From positions 1-64,000 of the forward strand of contig CALLBD010000049.1 of NCBI GenBank assembly GCA_938001915.1: a DNA stretch of 64,000 nucleotides. The letters are read 5' to 3'. The notes under the pieces are model-generated. The model made no database searches. It was given only the letters and a program-made list of their open reading frames with translations, and was not told the origin of the DNA. Within the stretch, counting starts at the first letter, position 1; every line of letters begins with the position of its first letter. The position numbers and the translations under genes were made by a program. This document shows, one piece after another, positions 2,473 through 38,937 of the stretch. The stretch is from an uncultured Caulobacterales bacterium (GTDB lineage: Bacteria > Pseudomonadota > Alphaproteobacteria > Caulobacterales > Maricaulaceae).

Positions 2473-3852
2473 TTACCCGGCCAGACGCGCAGCGTCTTCT
2501 TGGCGGTAACTTCCCAGCTCTTCAGAGATGAGAAACGCCAGCTCAAGGGCTTGGTTGGCATTTAAGCGCGGATCACAATGTGTGTGATAGCGCGAGGATA
2601 AATCAGCCTCGCTCACCGCGCTCGCGGAGCCGCCCAAACATTCAGTGACATTTTGACCCGTCATTTCGAAATGTACGCCGCCCGGCCAGCAGCCCTCCGA
2701 ATGAAGAACCTGCATGAACTGTCGCACCTCTGTCAGAATATTATCGAAAGGCCGCGTTTTATATCCGCTGTCTGTTTTAATCGTATTGCCGTGCATCGGG
2801 TCGCAAGACCATACGACATGACGCCCTGCCTTTTTTACAGCGCGTGCAAGGGTCGGCAGACCCTTTGCGACCTTGTCATGCCCATAGCGCGCAATCAAAG
2901 TCATACGGCCTGGCTCATTTTGCGGGTTCAGAACATCCAAGAGACGCATGAGTTCATCAGGCGCCAAGCCTTCACCAATCTTCATCGCAATAGGGTTCTC
3001 GATACCGCGCATGAATTCAACATGCGCATGATCAAGCTGACGCGTGCGGTTACCAATCCAGAGCATATGCGCCGAGGTGTCATACCACCGCCCCGTCGTA
3101 CTATCGATGCGTGTCATGGCTTCTTCATAGCCAAGCAAAAGACCCTCATGCGATGTATAGAAATCTGTTGCTGCCATTTGCGGTGTAGACGCAGGGGTCA
3201 CGCCGCAGGCTTCCATGAAGTTTAGCGCTTCTTCAATTTTCTCGCAAAGCACTTTATATTTGGCTGTTTGCTCGGACCCATCAACAAACCCCAGCGTCCA
3301 TTTATGGATATTCCGAAGATTCGCATATCCACCTGTCGCAAAAGCGCGAAGGAGGTTCATGGTCGACGCGGATTGACCATAGGCTTTCAGCAAACGTTGC
3401 GGGTCAGGCAAACGGGTCTCGGGATCAAACTCCATCCCATTGATATTATCCCCGCGGTAAGACGGTAGCTCAACGCCATCACGGACTTCAACGGGCGAGC
3501 TTCGAGGCTTGCCGAACTGTCCGGCGATACGGCCAACTTTTACAACAGGCTGCCCTGCGCCATAGGTCAAGACCACCGCCATTTGCATCATGACGCGGAA
3601 CATATCGCGAAGGTTATCCGGGTGGAATTCTTTGAAGCTCTCCGCGCAATCTCCGCCCTGCATGAGGAAGGCTTTTCCCATAGCCACATCGCCTAGGCGC
3701 TGTTTTAACCGTCGTGCCTCTCCCGCAAATACGAGCGGCGGATAGCCCTTTAGGGTTGTCTCAACATCCTTCAACGCTCCCAGGTCTGGATAATCGGTTG
3801 GGATGTGCTTAGCGGGTTTATTGCGCCAGCTAGACGGCGTCCATTTGGTCAT
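2473..3852 (-). CDS. Class II 3-deoxy-7-phosphoheptulonate synthase (DAHP synthase)
   Basis: W-PSSWRNKPAKHIPTDYPD, GDCAESF, RIAGQFGKPRS, GGVHFEMTGQNVTECLGG: class II DAHP synthase motifs. Confidence 0.96.
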   Translation of the reverse strand: MTKWTPSSWRNKPAKHIPTDYPDLGALKDVETTLKGYPPLVFAGEARRLKQRLGDVAMGKAFLMQGGDCAESFKEFHPDNLRDMFRVMMQMAVVLTYGAGQPVVKVGRIAGQFGKPRSSPVEVRDGVELPSYRGDNINGMEFDPETRLPDPQRLLKAYGQSASTMNLLRAFATGGYANLRNIHKWTLGFVDGSEQTAKYKVLCEKIEEALNFMEACGVTPASTPQMAATDFYTSHEGLLLGYEEAMTRIDSTTGRWYDTSAHMLWIGNRTRQLDHAHVEFMRGIENPIAMKIGEGLAPDELMRLLDVLNPQNEPGRMTLIARYGHDKVAKGLPTLARAVKKAGRHVVWSCDPMHGNTIKTDSGYKTRPFDNILTEVRQFMQVLHSEGCWPGGVHFEMTGQNVTECLGGSASAVSEADLSSRYHTHCDPRLNANQALELAFLISEELGSYRQEDAARLAG

Positions 3853-3958
3853 CTTATTGTCCTTTTACGCAACAAACTTGCGTCAACGTATGCCGAGGAT
3901 AACAGTTGCGGATAATTTTGCCTAGCCTGAGTTCATGTGCTGGTAAAAAAATATCAGC

Positions 3959-5320
3959 TCAGCTTTCTCTCGCTTTCAATGTCACAATTTCTTCTGCGAG
4001 CGTCGGGTGGACGGCACAGGTCGCGTCGAAGTCAGCCTTGGTCAAACCCGCTTTCACGCAAATACCGAGCGCTTGGATAATTTCGCCGCTATAATCGCCG
4101 ACCATATGGATGCCGATGACAGTCTCTTTTTCGCCTTGCGTAATGAGCTTCATCAATACGCGATGCGGATTGCCTGACAGAGCATTTTTCATGGGGCGAA
4201 AATCTGTCGCATAAATCGTGATATCATCACCATGTGTGCGCCGGGCCTCTTCCTCAGACAGCCCAACACTCCCTACCGGTGGGCGCGTAAAGACGGCACT
4301 CGCGATGTTGGAATGATCATAAGCGGTTTTATTTTTCTTGAAGACAGTTTCAATAAAGGCCACCGCCTCTCTGATGGCGACAGGCGTGAGATTTACGCGG
4401 TTGGTAACATCCCCAACGGCGTAGATATTTTTGGCCGAGCTTTTTGAATAGGCATCGACAACAATCGCGCCGGACCCGTCGACCTTCACGCCAGCCTTTT
4501 CCAATCCTAGGGTCTCCGTATTGGGCTTACGGCCTGTCGCCATAAAGACGACATCTGTGCCAATTTTTGAGCCATCATCAAATGTCACAATATAGCCGCC
4601 CGAAGTCTTTTTAATCTCAGTTGGGCTGACTTTGTATTTCACGTCGATTTTATTGTTGACCTGGAGCGCGCCGACTTGCTCACGGACTTCCTCGTCAAAT
4701 CCGTTGAGCAGCTTATCCCCGCGGTAAGCCTGCGTCGTCGTCACGCCTAACCCCGCATAGATACCCGCAAATTCACAGGCAATATAGCCGCCGCCAATGA
4801 CCAAGGCGCGGTCAGGCAGAGCCTCTAAGGTAAAGGCATCATCCGAGACAATGGCATGTTCCGCGCCTTTGATATTCGGCGTCCAAGGGTAGCCGCCGAC
4901 GGCTACGAGGATTGTTTTAGCCGTTACCGTCTTCCCGCTTGTGGTCAATCGCAGCGTGTGCGCGTCGACAAATACTGCGCGTTCCCGGTAAAGCGTCGCG
5001 CCATTTTTCTCTAAGATATTGCCGTAAATCCCTGACAGACGAGAGACCTCTTTTTGGATGGCATCGCGCAGCGTCGGCCAATCAAAGGACACCTCACCTG
5101 TTGACCAACCATATTGGGCCGCTTCGCGAAGGCTCGCACCGTAATCGGCACCATAGACGAGATATTTCTTGGGCACACAGCCCCGTACAACACAGGTCCC
5201 GCCGGGCAGGCTCTCCTCGGCCACGGCGACGCGTTTTCCGAGCTGCGCTGCCAAACGCCCCGCCCGCACACCGCCAGACCCTGCACCAATTATAAAAAGG
5301 TCAAAATCATATTCAGTCAT
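3959..5320 (-). CDS. gor: Glutathione-disulfide reductase
   Basis: FIIGAGSGGVRAGR, GGTCVVRGCVPKKYLVY redox motif, C-terminal CAVHPTLAEEIVTL. Confidence 0.93.
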   Translation of the reverse strand: MTEYDFDLFIIGAGSGGVRAGRLAAQLGKRVAVAEESLPGGTCVVRGCVPKKYLVYGADYGASLREAAQYGWSTGEVSFDWPTLRDAIQKEVSRLSGIYGNILEKNGATLYRERAVFVDAHTLRLTTSGKTVTAKTILVAVGGYPWTPNIKGAEHAIVSDDAFTLEALPDRALVIGGGYIACEFAGIYAGLGVTTTQAYRGDKLLNGFDEEVREQVGALQVNNKIDVKYKVSPTEIKKTSGGYIVTFDDGSKIGTDVVFMATGRKPNTETLGLEKAGVKVDGSGAIVVDAYSKSSAKNIYAVGDVTNRVNLTPVAIREAVAFIETVFKKNKTAYDHSNIASAVFTRPPVGSVGLSEEEARRTHGDDITIYATDFRPMKNALSGNPHRVLMKLITQGEKETVIGIHMVGDYSGEIIQALGICVKAGLTKADFDATCAVHPTLAEEIVTLKARES

Positions 5321-30294: not shown

Positions 30295-30816
30295 TTAAGC
30301 CGTGCGAGCGATGCGCTTGAGCGCATCACCGGTGAGGAAAACAGCACTTGCCAGCAGAACGATATCTTTTAACAAGAACTGACCAGGAACGACTGAGAGG
30401 GCCGGAAAACCGCCCAGGCTAGCTTCCCAAACAGGCGCCGTCAAAAGATAGCTTGACGTGACAAAGAATGTCCCAAGCGCGCCGAGAGCCCCGACAAGTG
30501 CGAGCTTTGGAAACTTTGCGCCTAGGGCAATGATCACAGCCAAAGTGATTTCAGTTGCGCCGATAAGGTTAGATGCGCCTTGCAGGCTGAATACGCTATA
30601 TAACCAAGATGTTAGTGGGCTGGAGGCGACGAGGCCTTCAATGGCGCCTGCTTCATAGGCGGTAAATTTCATGGCACCGATCCAGCCCAGAACCGTGGCG
30701 CCTGTAAAGCGAAGTGCGTTCACACCGATATTGCTGATTTTTTCACCCAGCGCGTTGATTTGCGTCGCTGAATATCCGGCAGTTTTTGTGTCAGAGAATG
30801 TTGCTGAGATGGTCAT
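30295..30816 (-). CDS. DUF417 (YkgB/RclC-like) membrane protein
   Basis: LRFTGATVLGWIGAMKFTAYEAGAIEGLVASSPLTSWLY...FLLKDIVLLASAVFLTGDAL. Confidence 0.85.
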   Translation of the reverse strand: MTISATFSDTKTAGYSATQINALGEKISNIGVNALRFTGATVLGWIGAMKFTAYEAGAIEGLVASSPLTSWLYSVFSLQGASNLIGATEITLAVIIALGAKFPKLALVGALGALGTFFVTSSYLLTAPVWEASLGGFPALSVVPGQFLLKDIVLLASAVFLTGDALKRIARTA

Positions 30817-30834: not shown

Positions 30835-30850
30835 TAAACCGAATGGTCAA
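30835..30850. promoter_or_regulatory. Operator-like palindrome S1 TAAACCGAATGGTCAA
   Basis: Matches consensus TTGACC-N4-GGTCAA shared by six sites; 19 bp upstream of DUF417 start. Confidence 0.65.
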
Positions 30851-30906
30851 GAATGAATTTAAAAAAATGCAGTTCGATGACTGCGATGAATGTGATATAC
30901 CCATTA

Positions 30907-30922
30907 TAAACCAATTGGTCAA
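30907..30922. promoter_or_regulatory. Operator-like palindrome S2 TAAACCAATTGGTCAA
   Basis: Same consensus; 72 bp from S1. Confidence 0.65.
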
Positions 30923-31014
30923 CTATTCTTAGATCACGAAGCTGTGAGGTCGAAAAATATCTTCTCTCCCAATCTCACTTGGCATTTTGATTCACCTACC
31001 GCATGGGTAGGGTA

Positions 31015-31626
31015 TTAGGCGGTTCCATCGTTCAGAATCACGGAAATTTGACGCTTTAATGCGGGCAAAACCTCACTCTCATACCAAGGGTTACGCTTGA
31101 GCCATCGATTATTTCTTGGACTCGGGTGAGGCATGACGAGTCTTGCGGGCATATAGTCCTTCCATCTTGAGACACGTTCGGTGAGCGTTACTTTCTCTCC
31201 ATCATTGATGTGCCAATCGATCGCGTATTGCCCGATGATTAAAGTGAGCTCTACGCCTTTAAAACTGTTCAGAAGTTGGGTTCTCCATAGCGCCGCACAT
31301 TCTGGGCGCGGCGGAAGATCACCACTCTTTCCTGTTCCCGGAAAACAAAATCCCATAGGCAGGATAGCGATCGCCTTGGGATCGTAGAAAACCGTATCGG
31401 AAATTCCCATCCAATCTCGTAATCTAACGCCTGACGGATCATCAAAAGGAATTCCCTTTTTATGCGTGATCCGTCCGGGGGCTTGGCCCACAATTAGAAT
31501 TTTGGAGCTAGGGTCGCCTTGCAATATAGGCTTTGGGCCAAGTGGGAGGTCTTCGCAGGCCGTGCAATTTCTAACTGAGTTAATGAGTTCACGCAGGTCA
31601 TCATCAGACGGTTGAGACAGTGTCAC
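31015..31626 (-). CDS. Uracil-DNA glycosylase family protein
   Basis: ILIVGQAPGRITHKKGIPFDDPSGVRLRDWMG, MPHPSPRNNRWLKRNPW. Confidence 0.9.
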   Translation of the reverse strand: MTLSQPSDDDLRELINSVRNCTACEDLPLGPKPILQGDPSSKILIVGQAPGRITHKKGIPFDDPSGVRLRDWMGISDTVFYDPKAIAILPMGFCFPGTGKSGDLPPRPECAALWRTQLLNSFKGVELTLIIGQYAIDWHINDGEKVTLTERVSRWKDYMPARLVMPHPSPRNNRWLKRNPWYESEVLPALKRQISVILNDGTA

Positions 31627-31661
31627 AAAGACCTCCTAGGGCGGCTTCTCCTATATTCTTA

Positions 31662-32078
31662 TCACAATACCGACTGTGCACCAATGACAAGTACGGCAAG
31701 CCATGACAGAAGGTAAACAGGTGTGCGCAAATACGGAATACCCAGGATGTACACTACCGCATGAGCGACGCGAGCAAAGAAAAAGATCATCGCCCACTGA
31801 GCCACTACAGGTATGATAGTGGCGTCAGATTTGGCAAAATAGGCGGCCGCTAAAACAACCGCGATAAAGGCCGGCATCGTTTCCACCATGTTGAGGTGCG
31901 CGCGCTGCGCCCTTTGCGCCCATAATGGGGGTTCGGGTTGTTTAGCAGGAAAACCTTCTGGGTAATTATTTAAAAATGTGGGAAGTCCCCAAGTAAACAG
32001 CCTTGCCAGGATGTAGGGCGTCCAAAGTAAGATGGTAAGTAGGCCGCTAAGCGCTAAAAAGTAAAATGCAGTGTCCAT
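31662..32078 (-). CDS. MAPEG family membrane protein
   Basis: RAQRAHLNMVETMPAFIAVVLAA, FARVAHAVVYILGIPYLRTPVYLLSW. Confidence 0.87.
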   Translation of the reverse strand: MDTAFYFLALSGLLTILLWTPYILARLFTWGLPTFLNNYPEGFPAKQPEPPLWAQRAQRAHLNMVETMPAFIAVVLAAAYFAKSDATIIPVVAQWAMIFFFARVAHAVVYILGIPYLRTPVYLLSWLAVLVIGAQSVL

Positions 32079-32215
32079 GATGTCCCCCTGAACGATATAG
32101 TTATAAACGAATTAAACAAAATTCGTTGGGGCCAGTTGCTCACCACAGCAACTTATATCAAGCCATTGATTTTAATGCGACATCACCTGCAAAGTAAAAG
32201 AGACAATATGCAAAA

Positions 32216-33142
32216 TTACATCATAGTTTGGCGATATTTGGACGGAGAGACTTTGAACCTTTCCTTGAAGGCGCGCGTGAAGGCTGCAGGGGACCGATAG
32301 CCCGATAGTTTCGCAATCTCTTGGATACTGTCACTTGATCCATGGAGCCTCGCCAGAGCCTTTTGCATGCGCCACTCCGAAACATATGTCATCGGCCCCA
32401 TATCCAACAACTCACTGAAACGTCTGGCGAACCGGCTACGAGACATTCCGACTTCTGATGCCAAGTTTTCAACCGACCAATGAAATGCGGGGTTCGCATG
32501 AATAAGGCCAATTGAACGGCCGATTTGCTTATCGCTGAAAGCGGCTAATATCCCTTTAAGCTTGTCATTTTTTTCAAAATTTATTCTTAATAGCTCTATG
32601 AACATGACTTCTGACATCCGAATGACAGACGCCTGAATTGCCAATTGAGATGAATAAACTTGCCGAATAAGTAGCTCCACAATATTATCAAGCATTGCGT
32701 TAGAAGCCCGCTCGCTTTGCGTAACTATCTGGCATTTTGGAAGCTCACTGAGCAAGGGATGGTCCGCGTCCGTCCGAAATGTAAAATGCCCACAAACAAG
32801 TTTTGTTTTCGCCGTTTCATCGCCCTCACCCAAGACGAGCACTCCCTTGCCATCATATCCTACGTCTTCGAGAAGTGTTTCAAGTTTGGGAGCCTTTTCA
32901 TAATCTTTATCATAGAGAACGTGGGAGGTGCCGCCTGAGATAATTATCATGTCTCCCGCCGAAAGATTGTGCTCCTCGTCAGTATCAATTCTGACGTTAA
33001 GCTGGCCTTGAACAACCATATGAAATCGCGCGGCTTGTTTATGTTCCGGGACTTTAACGCTCCATGGTTTTGAAAAATCCGTACGGAAATAAAACACGCC
33101 TTTTAGATTTAAAGTGTCAAGAATATCGCTGAGAATGTCCAT
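32216..33142 (-). CDS. AraC family regulator with cupin_6-type N-terminus
   Basis: FHMVVQGQLNVRIDTDEEHNLSAGDMIIISGGTSH; C-terminal double HTH WSVENLASEVGMSRSRFARRFSELLDMGPMTYVSEWRMQKA. Confidence 0.92.
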   Translation of the reverse strand: MDILSDILDTLNLKGVFYFRTDFSKPWSVKVPEHKQAARFHMVVQGQLNVRIDTDEEHNLSAGDMIIISGGTSHVLYDKDYEKAPKLETLLEDVGYDGKGVLVLGEGDETAKTKLVCGHFTFRTDADHPLLSELPKCQIVTQSERASNAMLDNIVELLIRQVYSSQLAIQASVIRMSEVMFIELLRINFEKNDKLKGILAAFSDKQIGRSIGLIHANPAFHWSVENLASEVGMSRSRFARRFSELLDMGPMTYVSEWRMQKALARLHGSSDSIQEIAKLSGYRSPAAFTRAFKERFKVSPSKYRQTMM

Positions 33143-33216
33143 AAGCTACTCTTCCTTCTTTTTTGACTTGGGCCTTGGGCCAAGCGTGGCATAGAAAAGC
33201 CAACTAAATGCGAGTT

Positions 33217-33768
33217 TTACAGCAAGGTAAGCGTCTGCGCTTGAATGGCTTTAAGTACCGTCTTAGTACCGCCTGATTTTATAATGACACGCCCCCCGAA
33301 ATAGGTTGTCCAAATCAATTCCGCCTTATCCGCGGCTTTGGTATCTTTCACCGCTACGGCAATGGCATCCCTCATGCGCTGCAGACTGCCTTGAACGAGC
33401 TTTTCTGTGGGGATGTCAAATGGAGCCTGATCAACAGCGGCATTACAAAGAAGGCACCCCCAACGTCCCCGCTTTGTTTCGGCGGAATCAACCAGGCCCT
33501 GCATAAGGGCGCTTATACGTTCGCCTCCTGTCAGACCTTCATTGCGCAACATAGCAACACCATCTGAGACATTGCCTTTATCATATTTAGCCAAAGCTTG
33601 GAGGTAAAGAGACCGCTTATCTCCAAAGGCCGCGTATAAACTTCCTTTTTTAAGCCCCGTTGCTTTCATTATATCGGCGTAAGAGGCCCCCTCGTAACCG
33701 TGCTCCCAAAATACATCCTGCAGGGCAGTTAAAACGTCATCATTATCAAATTCGCGTGGTCGACCCAT
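33217..33768 (-). CDS. TetR/AcrR family regulator
   Basis: MGRPREFDNDDVLTALQDVFWEHGYEGASYADIMKATGLKKGSLYAAFGDKRSLY. Confidence 0.95.
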   Translation of the reverse strand: MGRPREFDNDDVLTALQDVFWEHGYEGASYADIMKATGLKKGSLYAAFGDKRSLYLQALAKYDKGNVSDGVAMLRNEGLTGGERISALMQGLVDSAETKRGRWGCLLCNAAVDQAPFDIPTEKLVQGSLQRMRDAIAVAVKDTKAADKAELIWTTYFGGRVIIKSGGTKTVLKAIQAQTLTLL

Positions 33769-33814
33769 TTCAAGGCTCCTTTGTTTAACTCACATAACTG
33801 TGACTACAACATAC

Positions 33815-33830
33815 TTGACCGTTCAGTCAA
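33815..33830. promoter_or_regulatory. Operator-like palindrome S3 TTGACCGTTCAGTCAA
   Basis: Same consensus, within TACTTGAC-N6-GTCAAGTA; 47 bp upstream of tetR start. Confidence 0.7.
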
Positions 33831-33909
33831 GTAATGTATTTAGGCCGTAAGCGATAAAAATCAACCCTATTAGAAAGACATCACACAGTTTGTAGGTTTC
33901 AACCCAATA

Positions 33910-33925
33910 TTGACCAAACGGTAAT
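33910..33925. promoter_or_regulatory. Operator-like palindrome S4 TTGACCAAACGGTAAT
   Basis: Same consensus, in tetR/secreted-protein divergent intergenic. Confidence 0.6.
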
Positions 33926-34086
33926 GAATAAAAGAGATGAAAATGAAAGAGAGACACTATCAGAAAACGGCCTTCACGCAGACGACGCCAGCTCTACCAG
34001 CTCATCTCAAGCACACAAACGGTACTCAGGCTGATTCCCCTTCCCTACACGCCAAGCCAAGTTCAAAAATTTTTAAGGAAAATCCA

Positions 34087-34446
34087 ATGAAAACTCTTGC
34101 CTCAATTATGCTTCTTTTCAGCCTTTCTGCAATGGCAACACCTAGTTTCGCGATGGGAACGGCTCTTAAGCAAACTTCACAGCTTCAGGTCAAATCTGCA
34201 CCTAAAACCACCAGACCGTCCTTTGAATTGAAGAAAACAAATTACAAACGAACGAAATATCCGAATGTGCGCTTGCTTGGACCAATCGATTTCTCGATTG
34301 AAGAAGATTACAGTGTCAGGCGATTTCGAAATGTAACGGCTAGCCGAGCACAGCTCGTGAGCGACCCTAATATCTCAAAAAACTTTGAGACGGATCAATA
34401 TTACAAAGCAACGGTTGCCAAAGCTAGCTTCAAATTCAAATTTTAA
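34087..34446 (+). CDS. Small secreted protein, unknown function
   Basis: MKTLASIMLLFSLSAMATPSFAMG signal peptide; ATG at 34087 preceded by AAGGAAA. Confidence 0.7.
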   Translation: MKTLASIMLLFSLSAMATPSFAMGTALKQTSQLQVKSAPKTTRPSFELKKTNYKRTKYPNVRLLGPIDFSIEEDYSVRRFRNVTASRAQLVSDPNISKNFETDQYYKATVAKASFKFKF

Positions 34447-34476
34447 ACTTCGCCCCATACTCACAAGGAGAAACTT

Positions 34477-34617
34477 ATGCCCACCGAAACCACTCTTTTA
34501 GACTTCATCAATCATGATTGCTTGTCCAGCATAGGAGTCTTACCCGCCCATGAAGAACAGCGCGTTGCAGATCATGAGATGCTCGCTAGCAAAGCATCTG
34601 ATACGGCAATGGATTAA
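34477..34617 (+). CDS. Small ORF (46 aa) MPTETTLLDFINHDCLSSIGVLPAHEEQRVADHEMLASKASDTAMD
   Basis: AAGGAG ribosome-binding site 7 nt before ATG, immediately downstream of 34087 gene. Confidence 0.5.
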   Translation: MPTETTLLDFINHDCLSSIGVLPAHEEQRVADHEMLASKASDTAMD

Positions 34618-34688
34618 ACGCCTCGCTATAAGAGCAAGATGTGGGCCTCAAAGGCCTATCGCTCACTTAACTCGGAAAATTTTAAACC

Positions 34689-36146
34689 TTATTCTCGAGG
34701 CTCCTCTAAAAGCCAGTACAGTACATTATCTTCAAATATCGGACCATTTGTTATGGTTCGATGTTTTCCGGGAATAAACATGGTTGACGACCAACCGATT
34801 GGCGAGACGAGTTTTGGTTCCCACGTCTGCCCTACACGCTCGTCAAGTAGAGCACTTGCGCGTGTCACAGTTTCATCACCTAACTCATATTGTAATATTT
34901 TAAAATCGCCGCTCGATGTATCGATAGACGCAACTGAGGGCGTTTCGCGGTTATCACCGGCAACTAAAAACATCTCGAAACCTTCAGGGGTCTGCGCAGG
35001 CGAGTCCATAGCCATTTGAAAGAGACGGGCACGCCTCAGAGCGGCCTTTTGATATATACGGGCAATTTTACGGCGGTCTGTCATAGACTCGACACCAGGC
35101 ATGAGACTTGTCAAAATCTCATCGGTTTTTTTATCCTCCCCGCTTAACCCCCATTTCATTTTTTGCCAAAGATCTGGGTTGAGGAGATCTTTCACAGGCT
35201 TATCTGTATCGCCGTCCCAGACTAAAGGCTTATGTCGGCTGCGCGGCAGGAGCTGGTAAACGGACGGAAAGCTGCCGATTAAAGCTTGATGGTAATAGGG
35301 TAAGACGGGACGTCCCGTATTGAAGCCATTGAGAAGTTGATCCATGGCCTCCAATGACCCCGCATTCGGAGGCGCCACCAGTATCAGCCTCTCAACATCT
35401 TTTGCTCCAAGCCAAGGTACAGCGCCCGCTGGAATAGCATCTAAGTCCGTTGCGCCGTAGCGTGCAAAATAGCGTGACAAAATCCCCCCCATGGAGTGGG
35501 CAACTATGTCAAACTTGACCTCGGCATTTTCTATGCCGTAGTCCTCTCTATAATTTTTCTGAACATCCTTGCGTTTCTGATCAATGAAAATCTTTAGCCT
35601 TGCCGCATTAGACGGAATATCTTGTCGCCAATCATAATCAAATTGAAAACATGTGAAGTGATCCGTTCCGTAGTCAATTGAATTTAGCCCCAACTCTTCA
35701 TCCCGATACCCTCCCGCACCCAGAGTGTTGAGAATGCCCGCATAGGCCTGAATAGAAATCGGAATGCCCGCCAGATCAACCTGCAAACTTTCGAGTACGC
35801 CATCAGATCGGACGCTGGTTTCAATATGATGATTATTGTCGTGGGCAAGATCAGATGAAAGGGGCAACGCTATGAGTTGAGCTCCCTCGTCAGATCCTGG
35901 ATCAGCAAAATCTTTGCGAAAGGCCCCCCACACAGTCATTCCCGTTTCATTATCCACCAAACGGCTTCCTAAAATACCGGGTATTACAATGACGGGGTTC
36001 CGGTCTGGCGCGTGGTATTGTGCGCTTTTGTCATAAATACGCTTCAAATTTGAGCGTTCTTTGAGCGTCGTTGCGCAAGCGCTCAAGAGACAAGTTGAGA
36101 TGAGACATATGACGGCAAACATGCGCATCGAAGTTATGTTCTGCAT
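34689..36146 (-). CDS. LCAT/phospholipase-like lipoprotein (alpha/beta hydrolase)
   Basis: Lipobox LLSACA; NPVIVIPGILGSRLVDNETG, FDIVAHSMGGILSRYFARYG (GxSxG-like), LVAPPNAGS. Confidence 0.85.
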   Translation of the reverse strand: MQNITSMRMFAVICLISTCLLSACATTLKERSNLKRIYDKSAQYHAPDRNPVIVIPGILGSRLVDNETGMTVWGAFRKDFADPGSDEGAQLIALPLSSDLAHDNNHHIETSVRSDGVLESLQVDLAGIPISIQAYAGILNTLGAGGYRDEELGLNSIDYGTDHFTCFQFDYDWRQDIPSNAARLKIFIDQKRKDVQKNYREDYGIENAEVKFDIVAHSMGGILSRYFARYGATDLDAIPAGAVPWLGAKDVERLILVAPPNAGSLEAMDQLLNGFNTGRPVLPYYHQALIGSFPSVYQLLPRSRHKPLVWDGDTDKPVKDLLNPDLWQKMKWGLSGEDKKTDEILTSLMPGVESMTDRRKIARIYQKAALRRARLFQMAMDSPAQTPEGFEMFLVAGDNRETPSVASIDTSSGDFKILQYELGDETVTRASALLDERVGQTWEPKLVSPIGWSSTMFIPGKHRTITNGPIFEDNVLYWLLEEPRE

Positions 36147-36204
36147 AATCTTTCCCTTTTTCTAACTGGCTATCTCCTGAAAGTCCTTTGCGCAAATCAC
36201 ATAT

Positions 36205-36230
36205 AAAAAAGCCGCTGTCGAAACAGCGGC
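36205..36230 (-). terminator. Rho-independent terminator of the 36262-37692 gene
   Basis: GCCGCTGT-CGAA-ACAGCGGC with A-run on + (T-run on -). Confidence 0.85.
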
Positions 36231-36261
36231 CAAGTTTGGGGAGGAAAATGGTGAGCTAAAT

Positions 36262-37692
36262 CTAAGCGCCAGGGCCGCAGTCAATGCAGCGCAGCGGCGG
36301 GTTCGGCCCAAAGCCAAGGGCGTGATTAAGTTTGCGCAGAGCCGTTCGCACCCCCTCCTCCAGCACCGGATGATAGAATGGGTTCTGCAAGGCATCATCA
36401 ACACTCAATTCAGACTGAATAGTCCAAGCTAACAGATTGATGAGATGTTCAGCATGCGGTCCAATCATCTCTGCGCCTAGAATTTTACCAGTATCTTTCG
36501 CGGCATAAATTCGCAAAAGACCCTTATTGATACCCATAACCCGGGCGCGGCCTTGATCCTCATATGAGACCGCTCCAATTTCAAAGCCTATGCCGCTTTC
36601 AATAAGAGAAGCATAGGTCGCGCCGGCCATCCCGATTTGGGGATCCGAAAACACAACGCCGAGCGGCGTGCGACGTTTGCGGCGGTAGCTATGGGGGAAA
36701 CGAGCCGCATTTTCGCCAGCTATCCGGCCTTCATCGGCTGCCTCATGTAAGAGCGGAATATCGACATTGGCATCGCCTGCGATAAAAACATGGCTGTTAC
36801 CAATGCGCCCTGAAAGAGGGTCATAGATAGGCACGCCGCGTTCCGTTAATGGCAGTGTTGTATTCTCAAGGCCAATTTTATCCAGATTAGGGCGACGGCC
36901 AGTGGCCGCAATAAGATAGTCAAACTCTGCCCTATCCGCTGGATCATCCGACCATGACACAATAACTTTGTCGCCGTCACGAGACACTTTTGCATCTGCG
37001 TGCCAATGCGCAGGAAATTCTTCTTCAAATGTTTTAAGCGCGTAGCTGCGGACCTCAGGATCACTAATCGGGCCTACCAAATTGTCACGCCCAAAGAGAC
37101 GCACATCTACGCCGAGGCGGTGCAAAGATTGTCCCAGCTCTAATCCGATTACGCCGGCGCCAAAGACTGCAACGGCATCAGGCAGGTCGGTCCAATCAAA
37201 AACGTCATCATTCACAATCAGGCGATCGCCTGCGGCTTGGAACATCGGCGGAATGTTCGGACGAGACCCTGTTGCAATAACTATTGTTTTTGCTGTTATG
37301 CGCGTCCCATTACTAAGCTCTAATGTGTGGTCATCTACAAATTGTGCGTAATGTCGGATGAGGTCACCCTTTTCAAAGCCCTCAACAGCGTCTTTTACGA
37401 AGCCGACAAAGCGGTCGCGTTCACTTCGCACACGCGCCATGACAGCCACGCCGTCAATTTCAGGGGGCGCGGTGTTAACGCCAAATATACTGGCTTTGGA
37501 AACATGATGCGCGGCCTCTGCGGCGGCAATTAAAAGCTTGGACGGCATGCACCCAACGCGCGCGCATGTCGTCCCTAATGGGCCGCCGTCAATAAGGGCG
37601 ACCCGGTTTGTATATTTAGTGGCTTCGCGATATGCGGCCATGCCGCCTGTGCCCGCGCCCAAGATGGCAACATCATAATCAAAATCTGGCAT
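36262..37692 (-). CDS. Pyridine nucleotide-disulfide oxidoreductase (dihydrolipoamide dehydrogenase/mercuric reductase/RclA-type)
   Basis: AILGAGTGGMAAYREA, GTTCARVGCMPSKLLIAAAEAAH (CxxxxC), HPVLEEGVRTALRKL. Confidence 0.92.
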   Translation of the reverse strand: MPDFDYDVAILGAGTGGMAAYREATKYTNRVALIDGGPLGTTCARVGCMPSKLLIAAAEAAHHVSKASIFGVNTAPPEIDGVAVMARVRSERDRFVGFVKDAVEGFEKGDLIRHYAQFVDDHTLELSNGTRITAKTIVIATGSRPNIPPMFQAAGDRLIVNDDVFDWTDLPDAVAVFGAGVIGLELGQSLHRLGVDVRLFGRDNLVGPISDPEVRSYALKTFEEEFPAHWHADAKVSRDGDKVIVSWSDDPADRAEFDYLIAATGRRPNLDKIGLENTTLPLTERGVPIYDPLSGRIGNSHVFIAGDANVDIPLLHEAADEGRIAGENAARFPHSYRRKRRTPLGVVFSDPQIGMAGATYASLIESGIGFEIGAVSYEDQGRARVMGINKGLLRIYAAKDTGKILGAEMIGPHAEHLINLLAWTIQSELSVDDALQNPFYHPVLEEGVRTALRKLNHALGFGPNPPLRCIDCGPGA

Positions 37693-37715
37693 GGTCTCTC
37701 TCCCTTTAACTGACG

Positions 37716-37991
37716 TTAAGCAGCTTGCGACAAAAACGGGGCGAGCAAGGGATCAAGTCCGCCAGCCGCGTCAAGTTCCGCAAGGTCGGAACCACCGCCA
37801 ACATGGACGTCTCCGATAAAGATTTGCGGGACAGTATAGCGGCCCGAGCGCTTCACCATTTCGGCTGTCAGGGCGTCGTCATTTGTAATTTCGAATTCGG
37901 TGAATGATACGCCTTTTTGAGTGAGTAGCGCTTTGGCAGCCTTACAAAATGGGCAGTAGCCCTTGGTATATAATACGATAGATTTAGTCAT
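37716..37991 (-). CDS. grxC: Glutaredoxin 3
   Basis: YTKGYCPFCKAAKALL, TVPQIFIGDVHVGGGSDL. Confidence 0.95.
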   Translation of the reverse strand: MTKSIVLYTKGYCPFCKAAKALLTQKGVSFTEFEITNDDALTAEMVKRSGRYTVPQIFIGDVHVGGGSDLAELDAAGGLDPLLAPFLSQAA

Positions 37992-38013
37992 TTTGAGATC
38001 CTTTCAAGGGATT

Positions 38014-38130
38014 TTATAAAATGTCGAATGCAGCAAACATGAGTGAAAAACTGGACATTCGGGTGAGCCTTTCGACGTCGAGGAGATAATAATTCTTGGA
38101 CGTATGGAAATTGAGTTCTGAAAGAGTCAT
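38014..38130 (-). CDS. Small ORF (38 aa) MTLSELNFHTSKNYYLLDVERLTRMSSFSLMFAAFDIL
   Basis: Upstream AAGGA motif; sits between DM13 and glutaredoxin genes in same orientation. Confidence 0.45.
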   Translation of the reverse strand: MTLSELNFHTSKNYYLLDVERLTRMSSFSLMFAAFDIL

Positions 38131-38155
38131 TGTACTTTTCCTTGAGAAAACGCGT

Positions 38156-38614
38156 TTAAGCCGCGTTTAGTTTTGCGACGCCAAGCGGTACGGAGAATTT
38201 TTCACACCAAACATAGACTTCGGAAAACTGACCCGGTGTGAAACCCGCGGGGAGTTGGTAAACTTGACGGCCCGTCTTATTTTTTAGCGTCCCAAGTTTA
38301 TTGGCGACATTAAATGTCTCTCCGTTACCAAGCGCAACAACAGGGTCAGGCGCGCCGTCCAAAGAAAAGTCAGCTGCGAAGCTAAGCTGATACCCTGTCG
38401 ACGTTTTTTCCAATTTAACTTTGCCGGTCGTAATATGATCAGACCGGCCGTCAAAATCACCCGTTGACAAGACAGTGGTATTGTTCGCGACATATTCAAC
38501 GGCTGCGGAGGCCTTCCCTAAATCGACAGCGTCTGATTGAGACGTTGTAAAAGCGTGAGCCGTAAAGGCCAAGGTTGTTACACCGAGAAACGCTAGTGAT
38601 ATTTTCTTCAACAT
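38156..38614 (-). CDS. Secreted DM13-domain protein
   Basis: Signal peptide; STGDFDGRSDHITTGKVKL...LGTLKNKTGRQVYQLPAGFTPGQFSEVYVWCEKFSVPLGVAKL resembles DM13. Confidence 0.78.
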   Translation of the reverse strand: MLKKISLAFLGVTTLAFTAHAFTTSQSDAVDLGKASAAVEYVANNTTVLSTGDFDGRSDHITTGKVKLEKTSTGYQLSFAADFSLDGAPDPVVALGNGETFNVANKLGTLKNKTGRQVYQLPAGFTPGQFSEVYVWCEKFSVPLGVAKLNAA

Positions 38615-38631
38615 TTTAAGTATCCTTTTTT

Positions 38632-38647
38632 ATGACCGTTTGGTCAA
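38632..38647. promoter_or_regulatory. Operator-like palindrome S5 ATGACCGTTTGGTCAA
   Basis: Same consensus; 18 bp upstream of DM13 gene start. Confidence 0.65.
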
Positions 38648-38701
38648 TTACAATTTAAAAATAAGAGGCGTCACCCGCCTTCAAAATCCACATAGGAATA
38701 A

Positions 38702-38717
38702 TAAACCATTTGGTCAA
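38702..38717. promoter_or_regulatory. Operator-like palindrome S6 TAAACCATTTGGTCAA
   Basis: Same consensus; 70 bp from S5. Confidence 0.65.
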
Positions 38718-38937
38718 GAATAAACCTATCACAGTTTCGTGAACGCCAATTTGTGCTCTCTAAAATTCTCAGTCTGGTCTGTCCCTAATGCGCGTTCCAA
38801 ACCTTTTTCGCACTGCACGCCACATAACGCCTATGATAAAACCAAAATCGGGTAAGGACGCCTATCGTCTGAAAGGCTGAGTTGAGTGTAGATATTGTTG
38901 CGGCTGGTTCTAATTATGCTTTGTAGAGCGGGGAATT

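Follow-up and report, generated by a model that had tools for sequence, protein, structure and literature searches.

A predicted TetR-family redox regulon with composite promoters in an uncultured Caulobacterales bacterium

Genes and operators of the locus

The stretch analyzed here (the window) comprises 64,000 nucleotides, positions 1 to 64,000 of the forward strand of contig CALLBD010000049.1 (assembly GCA_938001915.1), from an uncultured bacterium of the Maricaulaceae (Caulobacterales) whose genome is ~90% complete. Between positions 30,835 and 38,717, it carries six copies of a palindromic operator that stand before a tetR gene and several genes of apparent redox function. The best explanation of this arrangement, to which we give a probability of about 0.8, is that a thiol-stress TetR repressor would govern its own gene and three further units from composite promoters. 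The genes concerned are the following:

33217–33768, minus strand: TetR-family repressor, 183 residues (TetR_N, PF00440, E 9e-10)
30295–30816, minus strand: DUF417 membrane protein of the RclC/RcrB-like superfamily (PF04224, E 2.7e-31)
33937–34446, plus strand: small secreted-protein gene, start uncertain; a 36% identical gene has the same place in relative L026
38156–38614, minus strand: exported DM13-domain protein (PF10517, E 3e-10)
37716–37991, minus strand: glutaredoxin 3 (TIGR02181, 112.5 bits, cut-off 90)
36262–37692, minus strand: dihydrolipoyl-dehydrogenase-type flavoprotein disulfide reductase (NF004939, 656 bits, cut-off 435)
32216–33142, minus strand: RclR-like AraC regulator (Cupin_6 and HTH_18 domains; PF12852, E 5e-37)

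The DM13, glutaredoxin 3 and flavoprotein genes form one operon, running from 38614 down to 36262, and araC, 74 bp downstream of tetR, is probably co-transcribed with it. The small secreted-protein gene, which the initial annotation began at 34087, is present, but its start is doubtful because the frame is open from 33937, 11 bp after the nearer operator. A Pfam search with the 34087-start form returned no match.

A sequence check of the window bore out the positions first reported for the six 16-mers (30835, 30907, 33815, 33910, 38632 and 38702), their distances from the ATG (19 and 91 bp for DUF417, 18 and 88 bp for DM13) and the intersite distances (72 bp and 70 bp, respectively). The consensus proposed for them, TWRACC-N4-RGTMAW, does not cover the site at 38632, which begins with A. 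Genome-wide statistics were derived from pattern searches with a reversed-pattern control. With up to three mismatches, TTGACC-N4-GGTCAA occurs 47 times in the window versus 23 ± 4.6 times in shuffled sequence. The pattern TDRACC-N4-RGTCAA has eight exact matches in the 2.62-Mb genome, four of them inside the 7.9-kb block that holds the operators (P(≥4) = 1.4e-8, with all eight matches counted as background). Because half of the genome's exact matches fall within 7.9 kb, the motif is not equally common elsewhere. Near-identical copies of TRGAYCCTCGGGTCAA recur beyond the regulon in genome G000 (contigs C10:1867, C23:27509, C65:48157, C54:21503 and 21942), and these copies look like a separate repeat family rather than operators.

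Composite promoter architecture

The paired sites described in the initial annotation are real, but treating them as simple paired operators is incomplete. That first reading missed a palindrome (Q) beside each outer site, which implies a further input, as well as the likely −35 role of the outer operator (D), the placement of the inner operator (P) in the transcribed leader and a leader stem-loop. As judged from sequence, three neighboring promoters share a composite design in the order Q, 11 bp, D, P and start codon. Q has the form TCAC-N6-GTGA and lies exactly 11 bp upstream of D, which, read toward its target, begins TTGACC, 17 bp from a TATATC-like −10 element. This TTGACC putatively doubles as the −35 box. 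The elements are as follows, by promoter.

tetR/33937 promoter region:
33790–33803, no strand: palindrome Q, TCACATAACTGTGA
33815–33830, plus strand: operator D, TTGACCGTTCAGTCAA, between tetR and the divergent gene
33910–33925, plus strand: operator P, TTGACCAAACGGTAAT, 95 bp after D, a spacing equal in relative L026

DUF417 promoter:
30934–30947, no strand: palindrome Q, TCACAGCTTCGTGA on the minus strand
30907–30922, minus strand: operator D, TTGACCAATTGGTTTA, with putative −35 TTGACC 17 bp from TATATC (30899–30894)
30869–30884, minus strand: leader stem-loop, GCAGTcatcgaACTGC, then a T-run; between −10 and P; z = −2.15
30835–30850, minus strand: operator P, TTGACCATTCGGTTTA, 72 bp after D and 18–19 bp before the ATG

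DM13 promoter:
38729–38742, no strand: palindrome Q, TCACGAAACTGTGA on the minus strand
38702–38717, minus strand: operator D, TTGACCAAATGGTTTA, with putative −35 17 bp from TATGTG (38694–38689)
38666–38680, minus strand: leader stem-loop, AGGCGggtgaCGCCT, then a T-rich run; z = −1.13, weak alone, with homologous stems in relatives
38632–38647, minus strand: operator P, TTGACCAAACGGTCAT, 70 bp after D and 17–18 bp before the ATG

The D at 33815–33830 presents a −35-like TTGACC toward the divergent gene and TTGACT toward tetR, and the palindromic site at −62/−63 of tetR's own promoter is conserved in relatives. The 95-bp D–P distance in this region compares with 72 bp at DUF417 and 70 bp at DM13, and with 68–73 bp in 24 of the 28 composites that have P.

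Folding of single leader sequences gave a mean z of −1.06 over 39 leaders, with 15 below −1.5. Stem-loops lie between −10 and P in many leaders, including those of L056, L058, L093 and L114; the stem sequence differs by genome, and a T-rich run follows in most stem-bearing leaders. RNAalifold returned no consensus structure for the leaders because the automatic alignment failed to register the stems. From single-sequence folding, we hold the stem-loop with moderate confidence, and a role in attenuation or in 5′ stabilization is possible.

Conservation and the proteins that may read the sites

Homologous TetR, DUF417 and DM13 loci in relatives were found through protein rather than through the DNA motif, and many of them have a matching operator pair upstream of tetR, DUF417 or DM13. 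Many relatives carry a B-type tetR (31–45% identical) oriented divergently from DUF417 or DM13, with operators 69–72 bp apart. The window DUF417 and DM13 genes retain the pair with no tetR adjacent, and our search of the window genome found a single TetR of this clade and no second member. Together, these two observations make the TetR at 33217 the natural candidate for all three promoters.

The divergent loci, which include G002, G010, G022, G087, G035 and G085, also suggest a different account of the pairs. They could be remnants of divergent tetR/target promoters from which the B-type tetR was lost, leaving the outer half unneeded and the A-type TetR using the inner site only; the pairs kept at DUF417 and DM13 in the window, away from any tetR, are consistent with this. 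Such a history may be true, but a loss of function finds no support here. D and Q remain intact both at orphan loci (the window, G009, G012, G061 and G062) and at targets without a neighboring tetR (glutaredoxin, carboxymuconolactone-decarboxylase (CMD) and 54-residue membrane-protein genes), and the TTGACC of D, as the likely −35 of the target, would give D a present use. We therefore consider it quite improbable that the pairs are remnants.

Conservation is concentrated in the proposed elements. Across 20 protein-chosen loci, mean pairwise column identity rises from 0.30 upstream of Q to 0.83 and 0.80 for its two half-sites, with 0.40 for the bases that separate these, stands at 0.47 over the Q–D spacer and reaches 0.95 over the left arm of D, figures that are slightly lowered because the script set one locus (G009 DM13) on the wrong D. 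We searched 137 genomes of the family for TCAC-N6-GTGA-N(8–14)-TTGACC, together with a reversed control pattern, and 34 of the 47 Q–D matches have N11 spacing. The window genome has three, all at the three promoters described here, and one match to the reversed control; with two mismatches allowed, it still shows only these three composites. GC-rich TTGACC matches in genus g5 (L115–L119) were judged to be chance because their D has no right arm. Among 387 genomes across the class, one further match appeared, in a different family (G308), where Q, N11, D TTGACCGATCGGTCAC, 71 bp and P ATGACCGATTGGTCAA are accompanied by a divergent, GCFLCN-containing TetR (43.5% identical) and by a glutaredoxin–thioredoxin-reductase reading frame downstream. 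From this layout, we take the G308 composite to be genuine.

The exact Q–D composite with the right arm of D is present in 19 of 27 genomes with a clade TetR versus 1 of 110 without (Fisher 5e-16), under a clade cut-off of E ≤ 1e-60 that was set after the list was seen and in related genomes whose counts are not independent. This association bears on whether the sites serve another TetR-family protein, with the gene at 33217 a bystander, an idea compatible with the ~90% completeness of the genome, with the presence in it of other TetR proteins and with the predicted nature of TetR–operator binding. The conservation of sites at this tetR's own promoter, the co-occurrence of clade and motif and the lack of a second clade member in the available genome speak against a bystander role, which we regard as very improbable. 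The initial proposal, that TetR (33217–33768) regulates its own gene as well as the DUF417, 34087 and DM13–glutaredoxin–flavoprotein promoters, thus withstood several tests that might have gone against it and draws strong comparative support from conserved operator pairs, clade–motif co-occurrence and the single clade TetR.

Several points weigh against this regulon. Beyond the late choice of cut-off and the relatedness of the genomes, the case is built from sequence; the tetR/33937 promoter has a poor −10 at 17-bp spacing; and G062 (70% complete) has a composite with no clade TetR detected. Several single-D members, among them the 54-residue membrane-protein genes, have no P, so P cannot be essential everywhere. 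The CxxC pair of the TetR protein is invariant also in homologs with no DUF417, DM13 or glutaredoxin gene found alongside (for example, L041, L043 and L051), so CxxC alone does not mark the regulon.

The design raises a sharp question, namely the identity of the protein that reads Q. The same TetR might bind Q as a weaker or variant site, with two dimers 26 bp apart on opposite helix faces. Both palindromes have 6-N4-6 geometry (ATCACR-N4-YGTGAT versus TTGACC-N4-GGTCAA), the 11-bp spacing is rigid, Q–D is nearly restricted to genomes that have the TetR clade and isolated Q (15 places in the window genome) shows no obvious enrichment there. However, three of the six positions in each Q half-site depart from those of D, a difference that is kept in every genome and is expected of a different reader. 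We consider binding of Q by this TetR unlikely and infer that a different protein reads it. The RclR-like AraC protein (32216–33142), acting as an oxidant-responsive activator, is one candidate. Its gene is directly downstream of tetR in both the window and L026, and close orthologs occur only in six genomes, all six with the composite (Fisher 5e-6), but 14 composite genomes, including near-complete G002, G013, G018 and G035, have no comparable ortholog and an intact Q. This distribution rules out AraC as the general reader of Q and makes the assignment distinctly unlikely. Among the 15 Q sites of the window genome, none outside the three promoters convincingly accompanies a regulator gene with its own Q.

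Repressor, proposed mechanism and related systems

The TetR protein has a TetR_N helix-turn-helix domain (PF00440, 38.6 bits, cut-off 24) and an all-helical core by AlphaFold2 and Foldseek. The AlphaFold2 model has a predicted local distance difference test score of 94.6, and its best PDB matches are CifR–operator complexes. The only cysteines, C105 and C108, lie in the sequence GCLLCN, and G104, C105, C108 and N109 (G-C-x-x-C-N) are invariant in 24 of 24 aligned homologs. By analogy with NemR and with RcrR (the latter described in PMC9600549), we propose that C105 and C108 sense thiol stress.

In the mechanism that we envisage, reduced TetR dimers would occupy D, whose TTGACC would be the −35 hexamer, and thereby exclude RNA polymerase. 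TetR might also occupy P, 70–72 bp downstream in the transcribed leader, and elongation would be blocked or looped against. An oxidant or electrophile reacting with the Cys105-x-x-Cys108 pair, or with Cys105 alone, would release TetR, allowing production of the DUF417 protein, the DM13 protein, glutaredoxin and the flavoprotein disulfide reductase, and tetR's own expression would reset the switch. A second protein may bind Q, whose center lies ~18 bp before the −35 hexamer, a position from which an activator could touch the polymerase. More tentatively, and at somewhat less than even odds, this could be an undescribed alphaproteobacterial redox regulon with two inputs (the CxxC TetR leaving D and P, and a second regulator on Q at 11 bp) and RNA-level control by the leader stem-loop.

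The operators first noticed are thus a real feature that was correctly interpreted in outline, and the design is richer, a variant TetR redox regulon that combines a fixed composite promoter with a second input. Its DNA signature is transferable: TCAC-N6-GTGA-N11-TTGACC-N5-GT, in many cases followed after 70 bp by another operator, marks the thiol-stress regulon in alphaproteobacterial genomes that lack annotation. The regulon also ties DUF417 and DM13, both poorly understood families, to glutaredoxin, to disulfide reductase and, in a single distant genome, to thioredoxin reductase.

In concept, the repressor resembles RcrR/RcrB, CifR and NemR, and on the best reading it is not an RcrR orthologue. 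The RcrR–RcrB system of uropathogenic Escherichia coli (PMC9600549) likewise places a TetR-family repressor over a DUF417 gene, and the window DUF417 gene lies under a predicted TetR operator. According to the same paper, hypochlorous acid inactivates RcrR through its cysteines, with dependence on Cys54 and Cys95; conserved cysteines are also found in the window TetR. That system has a single rcrA-rcrR-rcrB operon, and the sections consulted describe no counterpart of Q, whereas the window has several separate or divergent promoters, additional glutaredoxin and flavoprotein targets and a DUF417 gene 2.4 kb away under its own promoter. Compared by published positions, Cys54 and Cys95 (41 residues apart) have no equivalents in the window TetR, which has only Cys105 and Cys108, and we therefore do not file the system as RcrR.

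The E. coli RclR–RclABC system brings together an RclR-like AraC regulator, a DUF417 protein and a flavoprotein disulfide reductase, as does the window. The RclR, RclA and RclC equivalog models all score below cut-off here (96.7/400, 111/740 and 85/275 bits, respectively) and, unlike in that system, the local operators fit TetR. Literature searches for DM13 with glutaredoxin or TetR returned no match, and DUF417 with TetR led to RcrR.

CifR of Pseudomonas aeruginosa responds to epoxides and regulates the operon of an epoxide hydrolase, and NemR of E. coli senses redox signals and electrophiles via cysteine and targets nemA and gloA. No epoxide hydrolase (cif) target was found at any composite promoter examined, and neither nemA nor gloA appears as a target of the three window promoters. 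CifR is the nearest match in sequence and fold (PDB 6nsn, 6nsm and 6nsr; 29% structure-based identity), shares the GCL cysteine with the window TetR and similarly represses a divergent operon and, to judge from a paper title (Ballok et al. 2012, cited in PMC8244358), acts through two binding sites. NemR is a TetR fold match (4yze) at 14% identity.

As suggested by family names, the target theme in relatives appears to be thiol and redox handling. Genes behind the composite encode glutaredoxin (L094, L107 and L180), CMD/AhpD-type proteins (L105 and L172) and a PNPOx-like protein that scores below its cut-off (L103). A conserved 54-residue membrane protein with no Pfam match follows Q by ~78 bp in L106, L110, L112 and L113, where Q–D stands without P. 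In the closest relative (L026 4264–4689, which is the same as L182; G009), an SPW-repeat membrane protein takes the place of DM13 ahead of the glutaredoxin and flavoprotein genes under the same composite, with transposase-like open reading frames just upstream (3379–4113). Between DUF417 and araC, the window carries genes for a uracil-DNA glycosylase (31015–31626) and a MAPEG protein (31662–32078), neither with a composite motif, in an order kept in L026. The DM13 gene that adjoins an A-type tetR in L090 (1504–1830, G018) contains a TAA codon in frame within the part that matched.

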